Assembly: GCA_016124845.1 (NCBI GenBank)
Contig: WGMW01000013.1
Coordinates: forward strand, 1 to 46,063
Length of the DNA: 46,063 nucleotides
DNA from: Flavobacteriales bacterium
Lineage (GTDB): Bacteria; Bacteroidota; Bacteroidia; UBA10329
Direction: 5' to 3'
Positions 24,133-25,197 of the stretch are shown here, in pieces. The notes under the pieces were generated by a model that made no database searches, was not told the origin of the DNA, and was given only the letters and a program-made list of their open reading frames with translations. Position numbers and translations under genes: made by a program. Positions within the stretch are counted from its first letter, which is position 1, and every line of letters starts with the position of its first letter.

Positions 24133-24924
24133 TTATTGAAACGCAACTTTTTTTGAAATGGTTTCACCCATTGCATCAACCGCCTGAAAAATATAAACCC
24201 CGTCTGCCAAAATCGTTCGATCCATGTCAGTTCCGCTTTTCGTTCCGGACCAAACCTCCCGATAAACCTCTTTTCCTGTACAGTCGTATACGAAAAACTG
24301 TCCATCTGAAATCTCAATCTGGAATGAGATTTTTACTAATGCCCCGTCACTAATCACTTTAAGATTAGGCCTCGTTCTTTCTAAACCAGATGTACCCGTG
24401 ACCGTTTGAGGGTAAAAATGAATTATAAACCTGAGCTCATCATCAGATGGCGCGCTCCATGTTGAGTACGTGGAATCAACAAGCAAATCCTGCGAAACGT
24501 TCTGCGCCAGATCCTCAAGTGTGACACCCATTCCCGCAGGAAGTGTGTATAGTTCCTTAAACGTAAAGTCGTATGATGCCAATTCTCCGGGGTGAAAGCC
24601 CATGGGAACGTCTGTCTGTTGGGTTATGTGAGGCAGTCCATTTATAGACAACTTCGGATTATTCGGTGGTTCAGGCGGTTCAACAACCTCGGTATAAACA
24701 TGCGGCTGGTTTTGATTCGCAATAATGAGGTTAGCGTCACAACATGGGTCCCAACCAAGGGTTGGTTCTGATTGCACTGGGTTTAAACCATCTTCAAAAT
24801 AGACCTGAGTAAAGTGTGCAAATCCGTTACCTTCAACTTCCACCCGAACTGAATAGTCCCCATATTGCGCAAAACATGTTGTGCCGACAAACATGGTCAG
24901 AGGAAGAAGTAATCGTGTTTTCAT
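24133..24924 (-). CDS. Secreted protein with type IX secretion (type A) C-terminal domain
   Basis: 263 residues from ATG 24924. Signal peptide (MKTRLLLPLTMFVGTTCFAQ), a middle domain without known family, and a C-terminal region of about 80 residues with the T9SS sorting-domain pattern: FFVYDCTGKEVYRE, then DRTILADGVYIFQAVDAMGETISKKVAFQ-like ending (LxxGxYxxxxxxxGxxxxKKxxx). Such CTDs send proteins through the outer membrane via the gliding-associated T9SS. The cargo is acidic and has paired cysteines (DPCCD). A MITE-like element begins 22 bp upstream of its start. Confidence 0.85.
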   Translation of the reverse strand: MKTRLLLPLTMFVGTTCFAQYGDYSVRVEVEGNGFAHFTQVYFEDGLNPVQSEPTLGWDPCCDANLIIANQNQPHVYTEVVEPPEPPNNPKLSINGLPHITQQTDVPMGFHPGELASYDFTFKELYTLPAGMGVTLEDLAQNVSQDLLVDSTYSTWSAPSDDELRFIIHFYPQTVTGTSGLERTRPNLKVISDGALVKISFQIEISDGQFFVYDCTGKEVYREVWSGTKSGTDMDRTILADGVYIFQAVDAMGETISKKVAFQ

Positions 24925-24946
24925 CAAGTTTATGTTTATTCAAAAA

Positions 24947-25076
24947 CGGAATTATAAAGTTGATGGGTTCGATCTGAGATTCCTCACTGCGTTCGGAAAA
25001 GCAGCCAAACTTTGTTCTTGTTTTCCTGACGAAGGAAGGAACTCAACGCTTTTGTACCGTTTACTTTATAATTCCG
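24947..25076. mobile_element. 130-bp MITE-like element with TIRs and target-site duplication
   Basis: CGGAATTATAAAGT at 24947-24960 is perfectly inverted at 25063-25076. Both ends are followed outward by TTCAAAAA (24939-24946 and 25077-25084), an 8-bp direct repeat as left by a transposase. The interior is non-coding and is itself a loose inverted repeat (GAGATTCCTCACTGCGTTCGG against the complement of CTGACGAAGGAAGGAACTC), so the whole element can fold into a hairpin. It has no ORF of its own. It lies between the T9SS cargo gene and the tRNA-Cys terminator. Confidence 0.75.
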
Positions 25077-25078
25077 TT

Positions 25079-25120
25079 CAAAAATACAAAACCCCAACCA
25101 CGAAATCGTGTTTAGGGTTT
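25079..25120 (-). terminator. Intrinsic terminator of tRNA-Cys
   Basis: Read on the minus strand: AAACCC, then CACGA-TT-TCGTG, then GGGTTT, followed by TTGTATTTTT. The hairpin lies 7 bases downstream of the tRNA 3' end (25127). Confidence 0.6.
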
Positions 25121-25126
25121 CTTTTG

Positions 25127-25197
25127 AGGTCGGGAGCGGATTCGAACCGCTGTACGAGCTTTTGCAGAGCTCTGCCTAGCCACTCGGCCACCCGACC
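25127..25197 (-). tRNA. tRNA-Cys (anticodon GCA)
   Basis: Minus-strand cloverleaf, 71 nt: acceptor GGTCGGG paired with CCCGACC, D-arm GCC/GGC, anticodon arm GAGCT-CTGCAAA-AGCTC with GCA in the loop, TpsiC arm AGCGG-TTCGAAT-CCGCT, discriminator U. CCA is not encoded. Confidence 0.95.

Follow-up and report, generated by a model that had tools for sequence, protein, structure and literature searches.

The window (the whole stretch of 46,063 nucleotides that was analysed, from a Flavobacteriales bacterium) contains a short element placed between a tRNA-Cys gene and the start of a gene on the minus strand. The features found at this locus are the following:

24133 to 24924, minus strand: downstream gene, 263 amino acids, possible secreted protein with a weak T9SS sorting tail; a similar start lies beside tRNA-Cys in three congeners
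24939 to 24946: left target-site duplication, TTCAAAAA (direct reading)
24947 to 25076: MITE of 130 bp, one of four copies in the genome (ends, duplications, copy search)
24947 to 24966, plus strand: left terminal inverted repeat, 14 bp perfect, 17/20 over 20 bp; 18/20 positions agree with one end of an IS1595-family insertion sequence (IS) of genome G128
24975 to 25003, minus strand: left REP-like arm of the interior hairpin, TGAGATTCCTCACTGCGTTCGGAAAAGCA (fold; short matches elsewhere in the genome)
25018 to 25046, plus strand: right REP-like arm, TTGTTTTCCTGACGAAGGAAGGAACTCAA, repeated in the own genome and some congeners; stem positions covary
25057 to 25076, minus strand: right terminal inverted repeat (direct reading, exact 14-mer search)
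25077 to 25084: right target-site duplication, TTCAAAAA (direct reading)
about 25088 to 25125: terminator-like palindrome of tRNA-Cys, palindrome and T-tract ending at the insertion point
25126 to 25197, minus strand: tRNA-Cys(GCA), confirmed in the window

Direct reading agrees with the original prediction of a 130-bp element with perfect 14-bp terminal inverted repeats and a perfect 8-bp target duplication. The order is TTCAAAAA, CGGAATTATAAAGT (24947-24960), 102 internal bases, ACTTTATAATTCCG (25063-25076) and again TTCAAAAA. Both 14-bp ends extend imperfectly to 20 bp, with 17/20 identical positions. The distance of 22 bp to the ATG of the downstream gene is also correct, the A of this ATG is at 24924. 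The same prediction placed the element between a T9SS cargo gene and tRNA-Cys, which is right as regards the tRNA; the label of T9SS cargo is weak, with a TIGR04183 score of 16.2 bits, below the cut-off of 23.

The element was said to form a hairpin, and this is found in both folds we have calculated. As DNA, the strand including the duplications gives a z of -3.85; as RNA, the minus strand of the element alone gives a z of -5.0, and 0/200 shuffles are equally stable in each case. Among the open reading frames of at least 80 amino acids, a single one overlaps the 130 bp (115 amino acids, unsupported); there is no transposase gene. The interior hairpin is a resident REP-like repeat, a point absent from the original prediction.

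Copies, empty sites and the downstream gene

The genome searched has 4,359,145 bases in 65 contigs and is 98.94% complete. The exact 14-mer occurs six times in it, twice in each of three elements as their paired ends; the reversed pattern, used as control, gives no match. Four near-full copies are found by similarity search: the window copy, C42 and C7 (both 100%), and C40 (96%). Their 8-bp duplications are TTCAAAAA, TTTTCAAA and TAATTGAA, all perfect, and TCGGTTAA/TTGGTTAA, with 7/8 agreement. Besides the window copy, the genome has three more, with differing flanking repeats. No full copy is found in the 58 other genomes searched, and plasmids and phages give no match.

The empty-site comparison refers to the locus of the window copy. 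Its tRNA-Cys side is present in 8/9 genomes of the genus searched, including the own genome. Eight congener loci from seven genomes were inspected, six of them with the tRNA. In three loci (L073, L075 and L076), a gene whose start resembles that of the window's downstream gene lies next to tRNA-Cys and the site is uninterrupted: the sequence is continuous via ATCAAAAATA or ACCAAAAATA up to the terminator-like palindrome. The target is found there as a single orthologous copy, ATCAAAAA in L073 and L075, ACCAAAAA in L076. Loci L077, L078 and L079, whose sequence past the tRNA differs, do not form part of this evidence.

Judged from these sequences, the element is a MITE rather than a conserved regulatory hairpin, because there are four copies with their own duplications and the site is empty in congeners. 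The reading as a non-autonomous MITE is supported, and the opposite outcome, a single copy conserved at its locus, is excluded by the three extra copies and the empty sites. A conserved regulatory RNA or terminator of the tRNA-Cys and secreted-gene locus, suggested by a strong fold located between a tRNA and a gene, is refuted: the hairpin is missing at the orthologous site in three congeners and present at three other loci, each with an 8-bp duplication, and Rfam matches nothing in the window besides the tRNA.

The 130-bp unit would have been inserted by an 8-bp staggered cut into the A/T-rich target TTCAAAAA. The insertion point would be the T-tract that separates the terminator-like palindrome of tRNA-Cys from the beginning of the downstream gene. 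The T-tract on the tRNA side is kept intact by the target duplication.

A TATTTTTG box is found 34 to 42 nt upstream of the ATG in the three informative congeners. Its sequence matches the TAnnTTTG consensus of Bacteroidota promoters. When the empty site of the own genome is joined, the box is at -24; in the window it is at -162, the only one within the 260 nt examined. The insertion has likely shifted this conserved box from -24 to -162, and would have set a strong hairpin upstream of the gene. A disrupted promoter of the downstream gene, as originally proposed, is possible from the position of these sequences. The box overlaps the T-tract behind the terminator-like palindrome, and it may be just this terminator T-tract. 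A sigma-70 scan is empty; the sigma-70 model is not expected to be informative for this host.

In itself, the insertion is an ordinary event of a known kind. Like the bacterial MITEs NEMIS, RUP and MITEAba12, among others, the window element is short and non-coding, it has terminal inverted repeats and a target duplication, and it is found in several copies near genes. It differs from them in its interior, which is a recognisable interspersed hairpin of the host, and in the fact that the same type of ends is found with other hairpins in another genus.

Insertion sequences with similar ends

A transposase sharing the terminal repeats was expected in the same genome. This expectation holds in part: IS1595-family ISs with similar ends are found in other genomes, none in this one. 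A search for CGGAATTATAAAGTWRAYGG, allowing 2 mismatches at most, was made in 395 genomes of the class and led to G128, a genome from another family of the class. Two pattern searches over the 395 genomes gave matches in 56 and 25 genomes, mostly single ends which we take as chance; part of them was inspected. Elements are confirmed only in G000, G093, G155, G211 and G128, together with the congener G005, which was reached by a protein search of 20 genomes.

G128 contains two identical IS copies of 1819 bp, with ends CGGAATTGTAAAGTTGTTGG / CGGAATTATTAAGATGTTGG and, at one copy, a perfect 8-bp duplication, ATGAAGAA. By eye, the other copy (L134:1066-1085) is flanked on either side by TTCCATTT, and five additional bases, CGGAA, separate the duplication from the left end. 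The transposase (325 amino acids) scores 186 bits with NF033547, the IS1595 family (cut-off 75), and 125 bits with PF12762; its zinc ribbon scores 24.0, with a cut-off of 25.4. The congener G005 has an IS of 1716 bp with ends CGGAATTAGAAACTTGTCGG / CGGAATTAGCAAGATGACGG and duplication AAAAAAAA. Its transposase is 57% identical to that of G128 and also reaches 186 bits with NF033547.

The outer CGGAATT is common to the window MITE and both ISs, but the full ends are similar rather than identical, a point against these ISs as partners. When 20 positions are compared, the MITE ends agree with the G128 IS in 18 and 17 for one end, 15 and 14 for the other, and in 15-16 with the G005 IS. A second sizeable open reading frame lies beside the transposase in both ISs (L175:2295-3936, L133:1061-2832), with 233 amino acids in G005 and 238 or 261 in G128. 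The one in G005 is hydrophobic by eye. These frames have no Pfam or NCBIfam match and are possible passenger genes.

The IS1595 family comprises the subgroups ISPna2, ISH4, IS1016, IS1595, ISSod11, ISNwi1 and ISNha5. The window MITE and the two candidate partner ISs share its 8-bp duplications, and the ISs also share its DDE domain and zinc ribbon. There are two differences: the window element has no transposase, and the ISs have a second reading frame, where one gene is the usual number in the family. According to one source, duplications in this family are usually of 8 bp (PMC8101967). Mobilisation in trans by an IS1595-type transposase is the best supported mechanism, because the ends, the duplication size and the A/T-rich targets agree and the family usually makes 8-bp duplications. 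The transposase of an IS of this type would act in trans on CGGAATT-type ends, and we infer from the sequence likeness that this IS1595 group moved the MITE. Very probably, then, we have here a non-autonomous MITE of the IS1595 family, mobilised in trans, with a REP-like hairpin as cargo.

It is very unlikely that a different transposase family, also making 8-bp duplications, moved the MITE and that the likeness to IS1595 ends is convergence. Such a reading is favoured by the own genome, where no matching transposase is found with PF12762, the family searched there. Against it are two IS1595-family ISs with the outer CGGAATT, up to 18/20 bases in common and duplications that are A/T-rich and of 8 bp; one of these ISs is from the same genus.

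In the own genome, the PF12762 search gives no autonomous copy with matching ends. The sole IS1595 match (L080/L168, C59) has ends TCTGATTCCCCC and duplication ATATTTAA, and its transposase is 25% identical to that of G128. We have rejected this element as partner: its ends differ. By eye, it is flanked (L080:162-3225) by a tyrosine-recombinase-like and an ATPase-like reading frame; it is perhaps part of a mobile island.

A hidden autonomous element is not found among the near-matches of the terminal repeat. Twenty-four such loci (L037-L060; two places with 2 mismatches were left out) were scanned for a partner end, using the 14-mer with at most 3 mismatches, a threshold at which chance partners are expected. 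Based on extended ends of 20-22 bp and their flanks, the only real pair is the diverged MITE copy (L037/L057). A scan of the contig collection genome_contigs for the terminal repeat plus six positions gives 15 loci, each with one exact end only. Just one of them, L091, forms a pair, a poor one with 6 mismatches in one end and a 7/8 duplication, which we take as chance. The paired-end scan over all retrieved loci gives 0 matches on reversed loci; the poor pair that it gives at L105 is not counted as an element. An autonomous copy in an assembly gap is possible, because the assembly is 98.94% complete in 65 contigs. The partner IS would have been lost from the own genome, or would be unassembled in it.

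Hairpins inside the transposon ends

The interior of the window MITE is a pair of REP-like mini-hairpins, which is also found standing alone in the own genome and in some congeners. These host interspersed repeats would have been enclosed by the transposon ends. With at most 1 mismatch, CTGACGAAGGAAG is found 30 times in the own genome (control 12), 45 in G005 (6) and 26 in G004 (7). G008 (9, control 11) and G006 (2, control 4) are at the control level, therefore this repeat is not general in the genus. The retrieved loci contain GACGAAGGA at 64 distinct places, of which 73% have at least four flanking pairs, compared with 27% (maximum 39%) with shuffled partners; in this count, the search pattern determines the first two pairs in part. 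At stem positions 3 and 4, C-G, G-C and T-A pairs are exchanged for one another.

Most of these hairpins are not enclosed by transposon ends, which we call a shell. In the own genome, 4/17 hairpin sites have a shell and these are exactly the four MITE copies; 13/17 have none, and the control gives 0. In G005, a single site out of 21 is strictly shelled, with another type of ends, GGTCATTTCCTAGGATGTGA, and duplication TTGGGGAA; the other 20 are not. This second shell type (L272:67-263, ends GGTSATTKCCTAG), unrelated to the first, contains the same REP-like repeat as the window. Shell transport is thus at most one route of spread, because most of the sampled hairpin copies are unshelled.

The end type of the window MITE is also found in another genus, g4 (7 genomes), in seven MITEs whose 8-bp duplications differ at no more than one position. 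These are L126 and L161 in G211, L128 and L129 in G155, and L130, L131 and L260 in G093. The first six have three unrelated palindromic interiors. L126, L161 and L131 are built on ACCACATAGGCACATA, L129 on CCACAGATTACACAGATT, and L128 and L130 on TTCGAGCGTAGTCGAGAA, as is also L260. L126 and L129, whose cargo is unlike, have about 31 bp in common at the left end, with few differences. The degenerate pairs L261, L322 and L127 (the same site as L302) look related and are outside this strict count.

One of these interiors is an abundant repeat. With at most 1 mismatch, TTCGAGCGTAGTCGAGAA has 70 matches in G093, 60 in G155 and smaller numbers in the five remaining genomes of g4, with 0 in every reversed control; there are no matches in G000, G005 and G128. 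Among the copies displayed for G093, most form a hairpin of about 64 bp, TGTCAC...GTGACA, with perfect or nearly perfect pairing. In a sample of 43 hairpin site clusters of G093, strict shells are found at two when no end sequence is presumed, both of the CGGAATTAT type, with 0 in the control. In G155, 3/26 clusters are shelled with 2 in the control, and L308 and L319 are not of this shell type, so that count is uninformative. Both are lower bounds: the known shell L128, with diverged ends, was missed. In the retrieved g4 loci, cargo of the CACAGATTACACAGA type is found unshelled once (L255), and cargo of the CACATAGG type never.

The ends may be regarded as the vehicle and the hairpin as the cargo, because one end type encloses three different palindromes in the second genus. 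From these sequences, the transposon ends seem to serve as a carrier whose hairpin cargo can be exchanged. Either a hairpin would enter the shell, or the ends would come to flank a hairpin. The variety of cargo could equally have arisen if the same short ends had captured different hairpins on separate occasions.

The REP-like hairpins might themselves be the active mobile unit: by chance they would have entered several MITEs of IS origin that were already present, and the shell would then have copied them passively. We regard this as quite possible, if somewhat less than probable. Standalone copies are the majority of those sampled, with no strict shell at 41/43 sites in G093, 13/17 in the own genome and 20/21 in G005, and REP dimers inside palindromes are on record in the 2013 survey (PMC3733652). 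On the other hand, no shell free of cargo has been seen. This reading differs from that of a trans-mobilised MITE with hairpin cargo only in which step came first, and the two are not exclusive.

The cargo resembles in part the CGTC/TGTC REPs of that survey (PMC3733652). Many standalone relatives of the cargo also start with TGTC, form inverted pairs and have covarying stems. CGTC REPs have stems of 8-9 bp and loops of 4-5 nt, whereas the window type has mostly 4-5 bp stems and a 9-nt loop, GACGAAGGA. The unpaired tag of these REPs is TGTC in many standalone relatives; the window copy has TTGTTTTCC instead, and its pair has the tags inside. We call the window cargo REP-like only, because its stem and loop lie outside the sizes that define CGTC REPs. 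The survey gives no dedicated transposase for CGTC REPs, which a broad spectrum of transposases may mobilise, and in the parts consulted we find no description of IS1595 ends around them. BrickBuilt, from Porphyromonas gingivalis, is likewise a MITE-like element of Bacteroidota in which another repeat was captured and then propagated (PMC4596501). The repeat trapped there is a 23-nt direct repeat (a minisatellite), whereas the window interior is a palindromic REP-like inverted pair.

IS1595 does not occur in a further review (PMC10969869). No paper with at least two of six hairpin motifs was found by string search, and four terminal repeat strings matched only irrelevant titles. Titles and the first lines of abstracts on IS1595 and MITEs describe no such element. 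The insertion varies from the known kind in two respects, a REP-like cargo enclosed by IS1595-type ends and several sorts of cargo in a single end type; the precedents are a MITE with a trapped minisatellite (PMC4596501) and the REP dimers inside palindromes (PMC3733652).

More generally, IS1595-type ends, with at least one other shell type, might be interchangeable carriers for REP-like hairpins which have no transposase of their own, an extension that we consider rather doubtful. If true, DDE transposases would provide a dispersal route for the orphan CGTC/TGTC-like REPs of Bacteroidota, within and between genomes. The movement of CGTC-type REPs is left open in the 2013 survey (PMC3733652), and shelled hairpins with clean 8-bp duplications make the idea of multiple transposases testable.

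Two further observations concern the repeats of the window's genus. By eye, L263, in G005, appears to be a second, imperfect case of this other shell type. L263-L282 and further loci of the genus contain REP-like repeats that read TGTC-stem-GACGAAGGA-stem-TCTC, with stems that covary, in many places paired with a second hairpin such as GAGATTCCTCGTTCCTCGGAATGACA.
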